Source of the DNA: Plectonema cf. radiosum LEGE 06105
Lineage (GTDB): Bacteria > Cyanobacteriota > Cyanobacteriia > Cyanobacteriales > Nostocaceae
Direction of reading: 5' to 3'
DNA: 42,696 nucleotides
Assembly (NCBI RefSeq): GCF_015207665.1
Contig: NZ_JADEWL010000052.1
Span: 1-42,696 of the forward strand
Part shown: positions 933 through 11,464 of the stretch, piece by piece
How positions within the stretch are numbered: the first letter of the stretch is position 1
Layout of the letters: each line of letters starts with the position of its first letter
Position numbers and translations under genes: made by a program
The notes under the pieces: generated by a model
Databases searched by the model: none
What the model saw: only the letters and a program-made list of their open reading frames with translations
Told to the model about the DNA's origin: nothing

Positions 933-986
933 TGGAAGAATTGAATGTTTAAAGATTAACACTAATTGACAGTGAACAGTTGACAC

Positions 987-1742
987 TTAACAGTTATCAG
1001 TTATCAATAAACCACCCCATAATGCTTTAACTAACTTATCTGTTAATTGGGTTCCTAACATCTGCGCTGCCATTTTATTACCGGGGTCGCATTCAGCGCT
1101 ACTCCGACGTATAAATAAATCACGTTCGGTTAAGGTAGACCGCATATTTTCGGTTACGGTTGGGGCTTCATCTACCCATTTTAACCAGCGTTCAAACATT
1201 TCCAAGGCAACAGTACGAATCAAATTAAGTGTATCATTGTTCGGCAAACAGGTATAGCACAAACTTACAGGTGATTGAAAAGAGCGGATATAAGCGCTTT
1301 TACTAGTAAATGATGTTAAATCAGGATTTGCTTGTAATTTTAGAAATGTCTCGTTTACAGGTTCGTAATAACGATTAATATATTCAAGGTCAGTATAAAG
1401 GTCGGTACGAGGAATATAATCCATATAAAATAAGATATTGGGAAGCGTACCGAATTCAAAAACTAAATGCGGAACTTGAATATGGGAACTCAACCAGACG
1501 GTTAAACGCATTGTATTAAAGTTAGATTTTCCCGGATTTCCCAACCAAGAATGCACCAACCAATCAATTTCTTTGCCTTGAAAAGCATTTAGCGAACCTT
1601 TTAAATTACCATCTTGACTGCTATATTCTTTTAAATCTTCGGTAGATGGTTCTGGTTGTAAATCAAAACGTCTTTCTATTTTCTGTTTGAGTTCGCAGGT
1701 GATAGCCCATAACTGTTCAAATACATCTTTACTATCTGCCAT
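987..1742 (-). CDS. Red chlorophyll catabolite reductase (RCCR/ACD2) family protein
   Basis: This 251-residue protein matches the RCC reductase family. In plants that enzyme is a ferredoxin-dependent bilin reductase that reduces the red chlorophyll catabolite made by pheophorbide a oxygenase to a fluorescent one. The recognisable stretch is the middle: VPHLVFEFGTLPNILFYMDY, then PRTDLYTDLEYINRYYEPVNE, KSAYIRSFQSPVSLCYTC, corresponding to the plant FGTSP, PRKDL and YIRS..SP regions. Length is close to the mature plant enzyme, and no transit or signal peptide is seen. It lies 60 bases downstream of, and on the same strand as, an FAD monooxygenase, and 2.4 kb from a PAO-type Rieske gene on the other strand, which would supply its substrate. 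RCCR homologues are known in cyanobacteria, but their substrate there is not established; phycobilin-type reduction is an alternative. Confidence 0.72.
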   Translation of the reverse strand: MADSKDVFEQLWAITCELKQKIERRFDLQPEPSTEDLKEYSSQDGNLKGSLNAFQGKEIDWLVHSWLGNPGKSNFNTMRLTVWLSSHIQVPHLVFEFGTLPNILFYMDYIPRTDLYTDLEYINRYYEPVNETFLKLQANPDLTSFTSKSAYIRSFQSPVSLCYTCLPNNDTLNLIRTVALEMFERWLKWVDEAPTVTENMRSTLTERDLFIRRSSAECDPGNKMAAQMLGTQLTDKLVKALWGGLLITDNC

Positions 1743-1802
1743 CGGTTTGTTTAATTTCTAATGTTACGCTTGTATCATAAAGTAAAACGTCAAATTTTGC
1801 TG

Positions 1803-3104
1803 TTAGTTTATTTTTTCAGCATAAAACTTTTGATTGGCATTTTTCACCTTGGATATCCAACCTTGGTGGGATTTTAAAATTTCTGAAAAAGAAAGTGTGG
1901 TCGTAGATAATACTTCTCTCAAAGGAGGTTTAAATAATTGAGGAGATAGTTTATGCATGACTTTAGCAAAAGTTTCTCTTAAAAGAAACTCCGTAAACAG
2001 AACTTTGGAACTCGGATATACATTTGTGTCGAGTTCCCACAATGCATAAACATCTGATTGACGACAAATCGTAAACTGCTCCAAAGCCAAATTCCAATCG
2101 TCACCATACTCATCTAATAAGTTATCGAAGATAAAGGTATCCTCAAAAGCAACATTGCAACCTTGACCCAAAGACGAAGTAATAGCATGAATTGCATCTC
2201 CGATTATTAGTACATTGTCATTATGATGGAAGCGGTTACAGCGAGTTTTTAATTGAGTCGAAAATGGTTTTTCGACAAAATTTTCAGCTTCTTGTTCGCT
2301 GACTAATTCACCCACTATTGGGATATTTTGCTGCAAGTAAGCAAATACATCTTCTTTACTATTAAGACCAATTATTTTTTCCGCATTGCGTGGAAAGAAT
2401 AAAAGACCGATAAAGTTTCCGTCTAATTGGGGAACTGCTCCAAAAGTAATCCCTTCTTCTATGCGCCAAATATGAATGCAATCAGATTTCAATTGGAAAT
2501 CAGTTCTTTGATTATTACCAGAAATAAACAGTGTTTTGTAGCAAGAATTGGCGTATTTTTGCTCAAATTCAAAAAAATCGGAGTTTAAAAAATGCTTTCT
2601 AACCGTAGAACGCGCACCATCTGCGCCAATTAATATATCATAATCGACATGAACAAATTCTTTTTCTGCTCCAATTGCAAAAGTAACTTGTTTAGCATCA
2701 AAATCTACACTATGACATTGATAGTTAAAATTAATCTTTACTTGACGATCGCTTTCCTCTAAATGTGACAAGAGAGTCATCACCACACTAATACGGTCAG
2801 TATTATATATCGGTTGTTTTCTCGAAAGAAATTGCATCTTGCCACTTTTTCTGTGTATAATAGTACCTTTATTTTCTACACATTTAGCTTTAAGCGCCGC
2901 TTCTAATCCTGGAATTTTTCTCAAAGCTCTTAGTCCCCTTTCGCTTATACCATAGGGGATGGTTCTAGAATTTGATAAAGGAACTTTTCTTGGGTCACTA
3001 CGGCGTTCATATATCTCTATTTTATATTGACCACCACGACGTGATAAATGATGAGCAAGGAGAACTCCACAAGGCCCAGCACCGACTATGACAACTTTTT
3101 TCAT
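1803..3104 (-). CDS. FAD-dependent monooxygenase, kynurenine 3-monooxygenase-like
   Basis: A group A flavoprotein hydroxylase of about 433 residues. Three family motifs are present: the N-terminal dinucleotide fold KKVVIVGAGPCGVLLAHHL, the DG motif in ILIGADGARSTVR, and the GD motif in VLIIGDAIHAITSSLGQG followed by NVAFEDTFIFDNLL, which resembles kynurenine 3-monooxygenase. The enzyme would use NAD(P)H, FAD and oxygen to hydroxylate a substrate that cannot be named from sequence. The open frame extends 35 codons upstream to 3209, but that part is not family-like, and AAAGG lies about 11 bases before the ATG at 3104, so the shorter start is preferred. It is co-oriented with the RCCR gene 60 bases downstream and diverges from the NmrA-like gene across a short promoter region, so it may take part in tetrapyrrole breakdown (inference). 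Confidence 0.8.
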   Translation of the reverse strand: MKKVVIVGAGPCGVLLAHHLSRRGGQYKIEIYERRSDPRKVPLSNSRTIPYGISERGLRALRKIPGLEAALKAKCVENKGTIIHRKSGKMQFLSRKQPIYNTDRISVVMTLLSHLEESDRQVKINFNYQCHSVDFDAKQVTFAIGAEKEFVHVDYDILIGADGARSTVRKHFLNSDFFEFEQKYANSCYKTLFISGNNQRTDFQLKSDCIHIWRIEEGITFGAVPQLDGNFIGLLFFPRNAEKIIGLNSKEDVFAYLQQNIPIVGELVSEQEAENFVEKPFSTQLKTRCNRFHHNDNVLIIGDAIHAITSSLGQGCNVAFEDTFIFDNLLDEYGDDWNLALEQFTICRQSDVYALWELDTNVYPSSKVLFTEFLLRETFAKVMHKLSPQLFKPPLREVLSTTTLSFSEILKSHQGWISKVKNANQKFYAEKIN

Positions 3105-3228
3105 AAATGTATGTACCTTTAAATAGGTATTGTCCGGTTTCTCAATGATTTCATTTTTATACAGGCTTGAATTATTTAACATAAAAAAACGATAACAAGC
3201 AAGATACATATTCTACAGAAGGATAAAT
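3105..3228. promoter_or_regulatory. Divergent intergenic region between the FAD monooxygenase and NmrA-like genes
   Basis: About 124 AT-rich bases separate the two divergent transcription units of the putative chlorophyll-catabolism cluster, so promoters for both must lie here or within the extended frame. The plus-strand gene has AGAAGGATAAAT directly before its ATG, giving AGAAGG as the ribosome site. No operator repeat was recognised. Confidence 0.5.
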
Positions 3229-4137
3229 ATGACTAAAATTCTACTCATCGGAGTTACAGGTGGTACTGGTGGAAATGTTGTTAAAGGTTTTCTCAAACAG
3301 GGAGTAACCAATTTGCGGGCTATAACTCGCAAAATCGATTTAAATCGTCCAACTTTAAAACAAATCAATGATGCAGGAATCGAGTTAGTTGAAGCAAATC
3401 TTGATGATCAAAACTCGTTAGAAACAGCTTTTACAGATGTTGAAGCGGTTTATTGTCATGCTACCGCACCCGATACAGCTAAACCCCAACCCGAAGAAAT
3501 TGAAAGAGCGAAACGTGTTGTAAGTGTTGCGAAAAAAGCTGGAATTAAACACTTTGTTTATAACTCTGCTGGTGGAGTTGATCGAAATACCAAAGTTAGT
3601 CATATACAGCAAAAAGCTCAGGTAGAACAAATTATCAAAGCGGCAAATTTACCCGCAACTATGTTACGTGCTTGCTTGTTTATGGAAGAATTTTGGAAGA
3701 AATATACTCGTCCCGGTATCCTTAAAGGTACTTTCCGATTTTCCATTCAACCTGATAAACCTTTACACCTAATTACAACCAAAGACATGGGAAGGATTGC
3801 AGCTTATGTAATCAACCATCCCGACAAATACATCGGTAAAGAAATCGAACTCGCAGGTGATGTATTAACCCCCCAACAAATGGCGATCGCCTTTTCAAAA
3901 GCTCAGAAAAGCAAAGTTGTTCACCAAGAAGTTCCTGCTTGGATATTTCTATTATTTTTGCAAAAAGAACTTTACAACATCATCCAGTTTTATCGAAATC
4001 AAGGTTATCAAGCCGATGTCAACTATCTAAGAGCAGAATTTCCCGGTTTACTGACAACTTTTGATCAGTTTTTGCAAGAAACCGATTGGGGAAACCCGGA
4101 ATCGAATTATGAAACAATGAACAATAATGGGTATTAA
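3229..4137 (+). CDS. NmrA-like NAD(P)-binding reductase (atypical SDR)
   Basis: A 302-residue Rossmann protein of the NmrA/HSCARG atypical short-chain dehydrogenase type. The dinucleotide-binding motif is ILLIGVTGGTGGNVVKGFL at residues 4-22, followed by RAITRK at the end of beta-2, the position that usually selects NADPH. FVYNSAGGVDRN and the ACLFMEEFW region also fit the family. These proteins are either redox sensors or small-molecule reductases, and the sequence does not decide. The stop TAA 4135-4137 shares its last base with the ATG of the next gene (TAATG), so the two are almost certainly co-translated. The last 15 residues (GNPESNYETMNNNGY) are low-complexity, and the following gene lacks its N-terminus, so this junction may be a deletion scar. 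Confidence 0.82.
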   Translation: MTKILLIGVTGGTGGNVVKGFLKQGVTNLRAITRKIDLNRPTLKQINDAGIELVEANLDDQNSLETAFTDVEAVYCHATAPDTAKPQPEEIERAKRVVSVAKKAGIKHFVYNSAGGVDRNTKVSHIQQKAQVEQIIKAANLPATMLRACLFMEEFWKKYTRPGILKGTFRFSIQPDKPLHLITTKDMGRIAAYVINHPDKYIGKEIELAGDVLTPQQMAIAFSKAQKSKVVHQEVPAWIFLLFLQKELYNIIQFYRNQGYQADVNYLRAEFPGLLTTFDQFLQETDWGNPESNYETMNNNGY

Positions 4138-5375
4138 TGGATGATATTTGTCCCCATAAGTTGGCGCAGTTATCTTTAGGAAGTATTAATGAAAATGGCA
4201 ACTTAATGTGTCGTCATCATGGTTGGTGTTTTGATGGGACAGGAAAATGTACAAATATTCCAATGTTGAGCGATGAAAAAGCTTTAGAAACTGCTTGTAA
4301 CAGCGAGCGATCGCAAGTCACAATATATCCTACTCAAGAGTTACAAGGATTACTTTGGATCTGGATGGATAATAGTCCCACTGCTTTTGAAGATTGTACT
4401 TTAAAGCAACCCGCAATTATGCCAGAATATAAGCTTGATAGCTCTTTGACAGATTGGTTTATGTCAGAAGTTCCTGTTGGTTATACTGTTTCAGTTGAAA
4501 GTACTTTTGACCCTTCTCACGCCCAATTTTTGCATGAAGGGATTGCTGGATTTTCTCCAGAAAGAGCTATTCCAATGCATCATTTTGAAATTTTTGGGGA
4601 AGTCTCTCCTGAAGATGGTTTTACTTTAAAGCATTCCGGTTACAATGTTTTTAACAAAGATATGGATGCTACGCGGAAGTTTACTCCACCCTGTTCTAAT
4701 ACAACAATTTACGAATATTCTAACGGTAAATCTATTTTATTTCAATTATATTTTGTTCCCATAAAACCAGGTTATTGTAGATATATTGGAAAGTCGATTT
4801 CTGATGCATTTCCCCAAAAACGTAACTTCTGGTTTGAACTATTACCAAAATATTTACAAACTGGCTTAAAACATTCATCTAATTATAAGTTAGGTAATCA
4901 AGATTTAACAATGATGCACTCCCAAGCTGTTAACGAATCTATAGGGGATAAAACTTGGCAAAAGTCATATTTTATGCCTTCCTTAGCTGACGTTGGGATT
5001 GTTAGTTTTCGGAAATGGTTAGATGAATTTGCCGGAGGTAAACCTTCATGGCAAGGAGTAACAGAAAGACCTTTTCAAGAATTAAGCGATGAACAATTAT
5101 ATGACATATGGCACAGACATACAGAGCATTGTCCTAATTGTCGGCAATCTTTAGTTTTTATAGATAAAGTAAAAGATTTTTGTCAAAACTTTACAGCGGT
5201 ATTGACAATCTTGGCATTATTGTTAATAGTAATTAATCTACCTTTAAAAATAGTTTTTATACCAGTTCTGCTTGGTATCTTGAGTTTAATTTGCTCTTAT
5301 AGGTTAAGCTCAATTCGGGAACGCTTTATTAGCAGTATTCCTAAAACAGGTTTACCTGTGGTAAAATTATATTAG
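4137..5375 (+). CDS. Pheophorbide a oxygenase-type (PAO/Lls1/Tic55/PTC52) Rieske oxygenase, N-terminus missing
   Basis: A 412-residue Rieske non-haem iron oxygenase. The [2Fe-2S] ligands are C5 and H7 (DICPHKLA) and C25 and H28 (NLMCRHHGW). The mononuclear iron site is visible at D125, H128 and H133 in TFDPSHAQFLHEG. The C-terminus carries the CxxC pair C332/C335 (EHCPNCRQS) followed by two hydrophobic membrane helices, the hallmark of the PAO/Tic55/PTC52 subgroup. PAO opens the chlorin ring of pheophorbide a, and the product is the substrate of RCCR, encoded 2.4 kb away. The oddity is the start: residue 5 is already the first cluster ligand, whereas family members usually have roughly 60-90 residues before it. 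No upstream extension is possible in this frame (stop TAA at 4125). The protein may therefore be N-truncated and perhaps non-functional. Confidence 0.78.
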   Translation: MDDICPHKLAQLSLGSINENGNLMCRHHGWCFDGTGKCTNIPMLSDEKALETACNSERSQVTIYPTQELQGLLWIWMDNSPTAFEDCTLKQPAIMPEYKLDSSLTDWFMSEVPVGYTVSVESTFDPSHAQFLHEGIAGFSPERAIPMHHFEIFGEVSPEDGFTLKHSGYNVFNKDMDATRKFTPPCSNTTIYEYSNGKSILFQLYFVPIKPGYCRYIGKSISDAFPQKRNFWFELLPKYLQTGLKHSSNYKLGNQDLTMMHSQAVNESIGDKTWQKSYFMPSLADVGIVSFRKWLDEFAGGKPSWQGVTERPFQELSDEQLYDIWHRHTEHCPNCRQSLVFIDKVKDFCQNFTAVLTILALLLIVINLPLKIVFIPVLLGILSLICSYRLSSIRERFISSIPKTGLPVVKLY

Positions 5376-6506: not shown

Positions 6507-6831
6507 TTAAGCAAACCTTAAATACCTTCCCCTCGCACTACCCAAAACTTTCCCCTGATCATAAATCAAATCACCCCGCAAAAGCTTTACTTTCGCTAAC
6601 AGCATCTTGAGATAAAGGTTGATAGATACCGACGTGCATATGAGAATCAACCACACCGGGGAATCCTAACAAGTTTTTAGCGTCGAATATTTCTTTAGTT
6701 TCCTCTGGTTTAATATTGGGTGCGATACGGCTGAATTTACCATTTCTGATATCAATATCCAGCTTTTCAATAGATTGTTGATGCGGACGCACTACACGGA
6801 CATTTTTGATAACTCGATCAAATTATGACAT
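6507..6831 (-). pseudogene. Remnant of a dihydropyrimidinase/dihydroorotase-like amidohydrolase: both ends joined, middle deleted
   Basis: Read on the minus strand, ATG 6831-6829 is followed by TCA and then a stop TAA (6825-6823). The frame continues with FDRVIKNVRVVRPHQQ and reaches the metal-binding GVVDSHMHVG and SQDAVSESKAFA, which is the N-terminal part of a D-hydantoinase/dihydropyrimidinase-like enzyme. It then hits TGA, but shifting by one base gives GDLIYDQGKVLGSARGRYL and a stop near 6507, which reads like the C-terminal end of the same enzyme. So about 80 N-terminal and about 20 C-terminal codons are fused across a lost centre of several hundred codons, with a frame change and an extra stop at codon 3. 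The product cannot be active. Its family is clear, but its exact former substrate is not. Confidence 0.75.
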
Positions 6832-8580: not shown

Positions 8581-9879
8581 CTATTTTGTATGAGTAATGG
8601 GAATTTCAATGAAAAATGTTGTCCCTTCCATAAGAATAGAATCAAAATATAATTTACCACCGTGCTTATCTGTAACTATTTCATAGCTAATAGATAAACC
8701 CAAACCAGTACCTTTACCCACTTGTTTCGTCGTGAAAAATGGGTCAAATATTTTAGAATGTATTTCTGGAGGAATTCCGCAAGCGTTATCAGCAATCATA
8801 ATTTTTATATAATTATGGTCAACTTTTTGAGTAGAAATTGTAATCTGATTATAAATATTTTTGTGATTATCTGGTTTTTCTTCAAAAGCATCGATAGCAT
8901 TGGCAATAATATTCATCAATACTTGATTTAACTGACTGGGATAACATTCCACAAGAGGAATATCACCATAATCTTTAACTATTTGAATTTCATTATCTTG
9001 GGATGTTGTTTTTAACTTATTTCCTAAAATCATCAAAGTACTATCAATCCCTTGATGAATATCAACTTTCTTAAATTCAGCTTCATCCAAACGAGAAAAA
9101 TTACGCAGCGATAAAACTATTTTATAAATACGTTCGGTTCCTACCTCCATAGAATCAAGTAATTTCATAAAATCTTCTTTAATAAAATCAAAATCAATTT
9201 CTGCAATTTTATTTTGAATTTCTTGAGAAGGTTGGGGATAATTGTGTTGATAAAGTTCTAATAATTCGACAAAATCATCAGCGTATTCTCTAGCAGGAAC
9301 AAGATTACTGTAAACAAAGCTCACAGGATTATTGATTTCATGAGCAACTCCAGCTACCATTTGTCCTAAACCTGACATCTTTTCGCTATGAATCATTTTA
9401 GCTTGAGTACGCTGAAGTTCTAATAATGTTGTTTCTAGCTGTTGAGTTTGTAAATTTAACTTTTGTTCTATTTCTTTGCGTTCAATAATTTCTGTTTCTA
9501 AAGCTATATTTAAAGCTTCAAGTTTTGGAACATTAGGAATAGCTAATAATTTTGGACTTAACCAAAAAAGTAATATTGCCGTAGATAAAGATATTACCGC
9601 AGTAGAAGCTTTTAACCAACCAGAAACCCAATAATTAGGATGCCATAAAGTCCAAACTTCCGCCAAATGGGTAAAACCACATAAAATAATAAAAGCACTA
9701 AAACATAGAAATATCCAATCAAAAGGAATATCTTCTCGTCTGTGAACTATACAAACAAGCATAATCGGAATTATAAAATAAGCCAATGCAATCAGAGAAT
9801 CTGAAATTAGATGTAGCGAAACCAATCCAGTTTTCCATAGATAACAATGTCCGTGAGGAATAAAAATCGTAGACAGCAT
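8581..9879 (-). CDS. Sensor histidine kinase with ethylene-receptor (ETR1)-type membrane domain
   Basis: A 432-residue kinase. Residues about 24-110 form three membrane helices that align closely with the ethylene-binding domain of plant ETR1: SDSLIALAYFIIP and AFIILCGFTHLAEVWTLW. D27, Y34, P38, I64, C67 and H71 correspond to ETR1 D25, Y32, P36, I62, C65 and H69, including the two copper ligands. A coiled coil (about 119-160) leads to a HisKA domain with the phosphorylated H180 in GVAHEINNPVSF. It is followed by an HATPase_c domain with the N box (NIIANAIDAF), DNACGIPPE, FDPFFTTKQVGKGTGLGLS. The GAF domain of plant receptors is absent. No response regulator gene is adjacent. Such kinases occur in other cyanobacteria, where one Synechocystis member binds ethylene; ligand binding here is inferred from conserved residues. 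Confidence 0.85.
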   Translation of the reverse strand: MLSTIFIPHGHCYLWKTGLVSLHLISDSLIALAYFIIPIMLVCIVHRREDIPFDWIFLCFSAFIILCGFTHLAEVWTLWHPNYWVSGWLKASTAVISLSTAILLFWLSPKLLAIPNVPKLEALNIALETEIIERKEIEQKLNLQTQQLETTLLELQRTQAKMIHSEKMSGLGQMVAGVAHEINNPVSFVYSNLVPAREYADDFVELLELYQHNYPQPSQEIQNKIAEIDFDFIKEDFMKLLDSMEVGTERIYKIVLSLRNFSRLDEAEFKKVDIHQGIDSTLMILGNKLKTTSQDNEIQIVKDYGDIPLVECYPSQLNQVLMNIIANAIDAFEEKPDNHKNIYNQITISTQKVDHNYIKIMIADNACGIPPEIHSKIFDPFFTTKQVGKGTGLGLSISYEIVTDKHGGKLYFDSILMEGTTFFIEIPITHTK

Positions 9880-10119
9880 ATTATAAAGAATACATTTTTT
9901 CCAGTTTAACTTGAAAAATCTGGAAAAGTAAGGAGATTGTATACGTATTCTTTGATTACCTCGACAATCGTCTTTTAATTAATATGGTATGTGTACAGGA
10001 CTCAATGTGAAAAATTGAAAAAAAATCAGTATATCTAACTATTGCCTCTTCCCTATTCCCTATTTCCTATCCTCTGAATATTTGATATATATCAAAATTC
10101 AATTCCTTCTAGAACAACT

Positions 10120-11253
10120 TCAATCCTTAGCTACTTTGATCACAAAAGTTACCAACCATGGACCAAAAGCAATAATAATTAACATTCGTGTTAACTGCAT
10201 CGCTAATACTAAACCAGTATCACCACCCAACTGCATCACAGTCGCAACCATTGCTTCTAATCCTCCTGGAGTAAACCCTAATAAAGAGGTAATAGTATCA
10301 ACTTGGGTAAATACATGAAACGAGTAACCAACACCAAGACATAAAATAATCAAGGAAACTACTAAAGCAATTTGAATTAATACCGCTTTCAATAATTTAT
10401 TTGCAGTTTTAATATCAAATTTAAACCCAATCGAAATACCTACAAATAATAATCCCATAGCGAACAACCATTGAGGAACCTGTAATTGATCGGGTAAACT
10501 CCAAAATACTCCCAACGCCACTAATAATGTGCCTAAAAAACCTGATGCAGGCAAATTTAACCGATTTCCTCCCCACATCCCCACAACACAACACAAACCT
10601 AATATCGCTAAATTCAACCACATCGGAAACGAATGATTATTTGCTGTTGTCATCGCGATCGCTGTTGTCACAGAATTATTCAAATCAGCAGGGAAAAACA
10701 AACCAGCCGCACTTGGTATCAGTAAAACTACTATGAGCAAACGTAAATATTGGAACAAAGCCACTGCTACCGCATCCGCTCCCATTTCCTCGGCAATGGG
10801 AACAATACTAGAAGCAACACCGGGAATAAAAGCGACAAAACCTGTAACTTTATCTATTCCAGACCATCGAGATAATAAATATCCATGAAACAAACTCAAA
10901 CTACCAGAAATTAACACGCACAAGAGCAATGGTACTGCATAAGTTGCAGCAAAATTTATTGTTTCCCAAGAAAAACGTACCGCAGTTCCCAGGGCAATAA
11001 ATGCTTTACCAAAAGAAATAAAAATCTTTGGTAATGGTTGGGGATTACCTCGGATACTTGAATAAACCATTCCTCCAATCATCGAACCTAACAACCAACC
11101 GACAGGAATTTGCAACCAATTAAATACAAAACCAGCAGCAATTCCTATAGTTAATTGAAAGATAATAGTAATTATTTGGGGTACATAGGAAGTGAATTTA
11201 TCTTGCCATTCATTAAAATCATCTTTTTCTAAAAATAAAATTTTATCAATCAC
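10120..11253 (-). CDS. AbrB-family integral membrane protein (AbrB duplication, putative transporter)
   Basis: A highly hydrophobic 377-residue protein with about ten membrane segments and the internally duplicated AbrB-membrane (COG3180) layout. The first half has LQIPVGWLLGSMIGGMVYSS and FVAFIPGVASSIVPIAEEMG; the second has LNLPASGFLGTLLVALG and LLGFTPGGLEAMVATVMQLG. The repeated PGG/PG-(x)n-E segments are typical. The family is often labelled ammonia monooxygenase or AbrB regulator in databases, but it is an integral membrane protein of unknown substrate, unrelated to the DNA-binding AbrB. The only available start is GTG 11253. No co-transcribed partner is obvious. Confidence 0.8.
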   Translation of the reverse strand: MIDKILFLEKDDFNEWQDKFTSYVPQIITIIFQLTIGIAAGFVFNWLQIPVGWLLGSMIGGMVYSSIRGNPQPLPKIFISFGKAFIALGTAVRFSWETINFAATYAVPLLLCVLISGSLSLFHGYLLSRWSGIDKVTGFVAFIPGVASSIVPIAEEMGADAVAVALFQYLRLLIVVLLIPSAAGLFFPADLNNSVTTAIAMTTANNHSFPMWLNLAILGLCCVVGMWGGNRLNLPASGFLGTLLVALGVFWSLPDQLQVPQWLFAMGLLFVGISIGFKFDIKTANKLLKAVLIQIALVVSLIILCLGVGYSFHVFTQVDTITSLLGFTPGGLEAMVATVMQLGGDTGLVLAMQLTRMLIIIAFGPWLVTFVIKVAKD

Positions 11254-11464
11254 AAAGCAATGTATATAAATATATATTATTTTTAATAGAGAGATGTTAA
11301 AAATTATCGTTATGAATAGGGAATAGGGTTGGGGGAAAATTTTTATAACTGAGTGGTAATTATATAAATAATCAAGGCTTAACTACTTAAGAGTTTCCTA
11401 GCCTTTACAAATTGTTTAAAAATTAATTAAAAATTAAACAGTATTCCTATATTGAATTAACAAA
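11254..11464. other. AT-rich intergenic region
   Basis: About 210 very AT-rich bases upstream of the AbrB-family gene and downstream of xisI. They presumably hold the AbrB-gene promoter. No RNA gene, repeat family or clear terminator was seen. Confidence 0.4.

Follow-up and report, generated by a model that had tools for sequence, protein, structure and literature searches.

The 42,696-nt window analysed here, which is the entire contig C13 of the genome of the cyanobacterium Plectonema cf. radiosum LEGE 06105 (7.6 Mb, 323 contigs), carries genes for an RCCR-family protein, an FAD monooxygenase, an NmrA-like oxidoreductase and a PaO-family Rieske oxygenase. The initial annotation had proposed that they form one chlorin-opening pathway, given that PAO and RCCR act one after the other in chlorophyll breakdown in plants. 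All four open reading frames (ORFs) are present and their families were confirmed by Pfam (Table 1); the gene assignments thus held, but the reading of PAO and RCCR as members of one pathway did not. We consider it likely that the RCCR gene of the window is genuine and belongs, with NmrA, to a conserved module, and that the Rieske gene is a truncated passenger of an insertion rather than a part of this module. Stretches and genomes used for comparison are labelled L and G, respectively; L002 is from Richelia sp. SL_2_1, L004 from Rivularia, and L117 (genome G306) from the same genus as the window organism.

Table 1. Features of the locus, in window coordinates
Feature	Position	Strand	Basis
RCCR-family protein, 251 aa, predicted FDBR/RCCR fold	987..1742	-	PF06405, predicted fold
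KMO/VioC-like FAD monooxygenase, 433 aa (ORF reaches to 3209)	1803..3104	-	FAD_binding_3 8e-24; PDB KMO 6lkd 1e-50
NmrA-like oxidoreductase	3229..4137	+	PF05368 5.6e-44
Extra 4.47-kb block without counterpart at the matching site in L002, L004 and L117	4115..8583	.	
5'-truncated PaO-family Rieske oxygenase gene, 412 codons	4137..5375	+	PaO and partial Rieske domain
Cyclic amidohydrolase N-terminal fragment (residues 11-92 of 493)	6577..6822	-	67% identity

RCCR family, fold and pocket residues

In the Pfam profile search the 251-residue protein matched RCC_reductase (PF06405) over the whole domain and above the cut-off (91.3 bits versus 24.9, 7e-26, model positions 6-251 of 253), which bears out its designation as an RCCR. 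Its predicted structure has the RCCR/FDBR fold and is nearest to RCCR. When the offset to the Arabidopsis numbering is derived from F218, E96 and D219 of the window protein are the equivalents of E154 and D291 of Arabidopsis RCCR, which we take to be pocket residues with functional roles. D219 is kept in all 43 aligned cyanobacterial RCCR proteins and E96 in 29, the window protein among them.

The best fold match to the predicted structure, as judged with VIA-align, was Arabidopsis RCCR, and the relatives found by sequence in the PDB were RCCRs only. Both results argue against the alternative that the protein is a bilin reductase apart from chlorophyll breakdown, with biliverdin or a phycobilin as a conceivable substrate, or that copies without the pocket glutamate bind bilins non-catalytically; we regard this alternative as possible but doubtful. 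The glutamate is replaced by alanine or valine in L039, L045, L047, L054, L055, L057 and L058-L065. L057 and L064 have two RCCR genes each, one copy of either kind (glutamate versus alanine or valine), with an NmrA gene between them.

PF06405 was detected in 35 of 388 genomes sampled from the order. A sample of the phylum gave 13 matches in 367 genomes, all inside the order and all already present in the order sample, so that the phylum sample contributes absences only. The search for RCCR on plasmids gave no match. RCCR homologues of cyanobacteria were described in 2009, among them Npun_R3277 and Npun_R3279, which are adjacent genes (PMC2716323). The passages considered here deal with homology and expression, not with other neighbouring genes, and offer speculation on what RCCR does in cyanobacteria and where it came from. 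Among the matches listed in our literature search, which covered titles and the beginnings of abstracts and left most subscription journals outside its scope, there was no paper on the gene neighbourhood of RCCR in cyanobacteria.

The Rieske gene and the inserted block

Comparison with L002 showed that window positions 954-4114 and 8584-9976 match at 95% and 96%, respectively, and that only about 40 nt separate the two matches in L002. In L004 and L117, the NmrA gene directly adjoins the histidine kinase gene, without a Rieske gene. Since the block is missing in all three, the Rieske gene arrived by insertion, and its adjacency to RCCR is thus a local rearrangement. Homology to most intact Rieske relatives starts about eight bases or less from the left join, and the insertion supplied the C-terminal residues of the NmrA protein (after ~4114), as indicated by comparison of its end with L002 and L004. 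A simple misassembly of the block appears less likely, as it would involve two joins into one site. The 82-residue cyclic amidohydrolase fragment is also carried by the block, and longer homologues of it lie near amidase and aldehyde dehydrogenase (ALDH) genes in other genomes.

The Rieske protein matches the PaO domain (PF08417) with 48.4 bits against a cut-off of 27, and is the only such match in the window genome. Its Rieske domain is incomplete, however, spanning model positions 39-83 of 88 versus 1-83 and 1-82 in the intact proteins of L098 and L110; the approximately 50 N-terminal residues that are absent correspond to nearly half of the domain. The [2Fe-2S] ligands (CxH..CxxH) are retained. 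Inspection by eye suggests that a C-terminal CxxC (HCPNC) is retained as well, along with a hydrophobic stretch that is a candidate for the membrane helices typical of PAO/TIC55/PTC52. The ATG overlaps the NmrA stop codon and is preceded by an in-frame stop at 4125-4127. Relatives with at least 54% identity over at least half of the query were found in 26 other genomes, and 19 of these 26 neighbourhoods were fetched; the ORF is 458-500 aa long in 17 of the 19. The relative in L105 begins at the same internal methionine and that in L107 is interrupted by an in-frame stop, and the subfamily may thus be prone to loss.

None of the 19 neighbourhoods contained RCCR, NmrA, FAD monooxygenase, amidase, ALDH or DUF3598 genes. 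Conversely, a Rieske gene of the window type was present in none of 40 other RCCR loci, which consist of six named records and 34 genome stretches (two sets that may overlap), the stretches extending at most ~10 kb per side and partners being counted by tblastn. Three further genomes have both RCCR and this Rieske gene, apart from each other: in G383 the two share a 7.3-Mb contig at a distance of 5.9 Mb (1.4 Mb for a circular contig), and in G327 and G381 they are on different contigs.

These results do not support the proposal that PAO and RCCR are adjacent because they catalyze consecutive steps, and the pair fails as a conserved chlorophyll-breakdown unit in the window. A single chlorin-opening pathway of this organism that comprises the PAO-type Rieske protein, the FAD monooxygenase, NmrA and RCCR also seems very improbable. 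All four proteins are present, the remnant Rieske frame is open with a low ratio of nonsynonymous to synonymous substitution rates (dN/dS), and the overlap of the NmrA stop and the Rieske ATG would permit coupled translation; nevertheless, this Rieske domain is nearly half gone, its gene lies on a block missing from close relatives and, in the fetched neighbourhoods, has no RCCR beside its relatives. Moreover, at E <= 0.001 PF08417 goes unmatched in three of the 35 RCCR genomes (G295, G363 and G017).

Other local differences were seen in the window. A second extra block of ~1.4 kb (9977-11386), relative to L002 and L117, includes a gene for an AbrB-family (PF05145) membrane protein (10120-11253). 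Positions 1-953, past the RCCR stop, carry a VapC-like PIN gene (495-932) preceded by a small ORF and are unmatched in L002, and could represent a further insertion or a contig-end effect.

Neighbours of RCCR genes in other genomes

The expectation of a conserved gene order was borne out for RCCR and NmrA, but not for the Rieske gene or the FAD monooxygenase. Among the 40 other loci, RCCR is accompanied by ALDH in 28, an amidase (CN hydrolase, nitrilase superfamily) in 24, a DUF3598 calycin barrel protein in 19, NmrA in 18 and the FAD monooxygenase in two, while five have none of amidase, ALDH, NmrA and FAD monooxygenase. RCCR and the NmrA gene are a conserved pair. In 17 of the 19 loci with NmrA (window included), its gene is upstream of an RCCR gene on the opposite strand; the exceptions are L050 (upstream, same strand) and L060 (downstream, opposite strand). 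In the 388 genomes, where NmrA was counted at E <= 1e-90 and the amidase at E <= 1e-50, the NmrA gene was found in 27 genomes, namely 17 of 35 with RCCR versus 10 of 353 others (Fisher 1e-13, kinship ignored), and the amidase in 74, namely 24 of 35 versus 50 of 353 (Fisher 1e-11, kinship ignored).

In L059, L060, L061 and L068, a gene of the methylisocitrate-lyase/PEP-mutase family is divergent and close upstream of RCCR, in the usual place of NmrA. RCCR is missing from L118 and L127, where the amidase is faced by an NmrA gene or a remnant of one; it looks as if RCCR had been lost there.

The FAD monooxygenase gene of the window shares the strand of RCCR, which it precedes by 60 bp, and is divergent from NmrA; its start at 3104 was inferred by comparison with L002. 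It was considered as a conserved partner and rejected, being near RCCR only in L002 and L056 among the other loci. In L117 (6438-8313), the place of the FAD monooxygenase-RCCR pair beside NmrA is taken by another FAD monooxygenase, unlike the first, together with a glutathione S-transferase.

The window genome lacks parts of the wider RCCR neighbourhood. Contig C103 carries its orthologues of ALDH and DUF3598, and the first bases of this contig continue the L002 gene order right after RCCR; an orthologue of the amidase was not found in the genome (best match 27%), and the cyclic amidohydrolase is present as a fragment only.

A PAO-RCCR link persists in a weaker form, with Rieske genes of another subfamily. 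In L060 (G055), RCCR is followed by NmrA on the other strand and then by four genes on its own strand, namely the amidase, ALDH, an intact PaO-family Rieske gene (455 aa) and DUF3598; this is the one locus of the 40 in which this subfamily stands behind RCCR. Relatives of this Rieske gene lie ~10 and 20 kb from RCCR in L137 (G372) and L138 (G376), with genes for a cyclic amidohydrolase and an Asp/Asn-hydroxylase-like protein close by, and another is found inside an amidase-ALDH run without RCCR in L130 (G152). The four proteins share 55-60% identity with each other and, in the region aligned by BLAST, 24-27% with the window Rieske protein. For three placements of this kind close to RCCR, a rough Poisson calculation made post hoc gives 0.006-0.008. 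Two further candidates were discarded: the 361-aa Rieske gene upstream of RCCR in L054, for which no PaO domain was reported, and a 397-aa ORF between ALDH and DUF3598 in L007, which lacks the motif and, by eye, resembles a transposase-type protein.

Proposed role and relation to known systems

Characterised RCCR-family proteins, and the bilin reductases that share their fold, reduce a linear tetrapyrrole with ferredoxin. For the window RCCR we lean towards the same type of reaction, probably a ferredoxin-dependent reduction of a bilin or oxidised chlorin. In a joint pathway, as we infer it, the NmrA protein would work on that product or a related one, as would the amidase, ALDH and the calycin-fold binding protein in genomes that have them. 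In this lineage, a KMO-like FAD monooxygenase gene lies between RCCR and NmrA, and the 4.47-kb insertion placed the 5'-truncated Rieske gene where the NmrA gene ends.

Several observations weigh against our reading of a genuine RCCR module with a Rieske passenger. The E154 equivalent is absent in 14 of the 43 cyanobacterial RCCRs, and the plant reaction thus need not hold for all of them. The dN/dS between the window RCCR and that of L002 is 0.58, albeit from few changes (dS 0.047), versus 0.09-0.16 for three other compared genes, so that the constraint on RCCR itself looks weak. The co-occurrence tests ignore kinship, and the amidase occurs without RCCR in 50 of its 74 genomes; in all eight stretches that were retrieved for the amidase and lack RCCR (L127-L134), the amidase-ALDH pair stands alone, which points to a function of its own. 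Lastly, the Rieske frame has stayed open through its 412 codons; the dN/dS of the gene (0.14-0.18 against four relatives) resembles that of four intact pairs (0.15-0.18), suggesting that the truncation is recent or that selection continues. A working product from a gene with nearly half of its domain missing is nevertheless unlikely.

A more far-reaching alternative places RCCR, the amidase, ALDH and the DUF3598 calycin in a wider catabolic neighbourhood, which in some genomes would also comprise the cyclic amidohydrolase and a PAO-type Rieske protein in intact form. Its enzymes would degrade an open-chain tetrapyrrole, yielding smaller cyclic imides or lactams, and recover nitrogen. The oxygenase would perform the opening step, RCCR the reduction, the dehydrogenase would oxidise a formyl group, the cyclic amidohydrolase would open the imide ring and the amidase would free ammonia. 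We consider this improbable, and the opposite-strand NmrA gene that separates RCCR from the amidase in L060 argues against it. Such a pathway for bilin breakdown and nitrogen recovery is speculative, as is its extension, to which we give little credence, that a set of filamentous cyanobacteria possesses an RCCR neighbourhood for complete open-chain tetrapyrrole breakdown, with a calycin carrier and return of nitrogen to the cell, of which the window genome would hold a broken-up remnant. The plant chlorophyll-breakdown pathway stops at phyllobilins; complete tetrapyrrole breakdown, if true, would be a bacterial pathway reaching beyond the plant one.

The preferred reading of an RCCR-NmrA module and an inserted Rieske fragment removes one apparent case of bacterial PAO-RCCR linkage, which is accounted for by the insertion. 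It also gives a testable lead on the function of cyanobacterial RCCR through its steady partners, NmrA (usually divergent) and the run of amidase, ALDH and DUF3598 genes, a lead that extends to the intact PAO-type Rieske genes near RCCR in a few genomes.

The window Rieske protein resembles the PAO/TIC55/PTC52 family (PF08417) in its PaO domain, CxH..CxxH ligands and, as read by eye, C-terminal CxxC, but differs from it in having lost the N-terminal part of the Rieske domain; its PaO score is 48-51 bits, whereas 54 of the 72 matches in RCCR genomes reach at least 80. Its relation to the family was judged by these scores, and plant members were absent from the matches listed in the PDB search. 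The closest solved sequence relative of the NmrA protein is PDB 5f5l (9e-37; molecule name 'Monooxygenase'), presumably KstA11, a match at the family level only. By sequence, the FAD monooxygenase is closest to the aromatic flavin hydroxylases kynurenine 3-monooxygenase (KMO) and VioC, but its score for VioC is 177 against a cut-off of 760. Arabidopsis RCCR (PDB 2zxk/3aga) is 22-25% identical to the window RCCR in the structural alignment, and the position of its F218 is occupied by Q. Unlike plant RCCR, cyanobacterial RCCR has NmrA, amidase and ALDH as gene partners. Npun_R3277 and Npun_R3279, as far as their 2009 description goes (PMC2716323), belong to the same family as the window RCCR, and their side-by-side arrangement is resembled by the RCCR pairs of L057 and L064.
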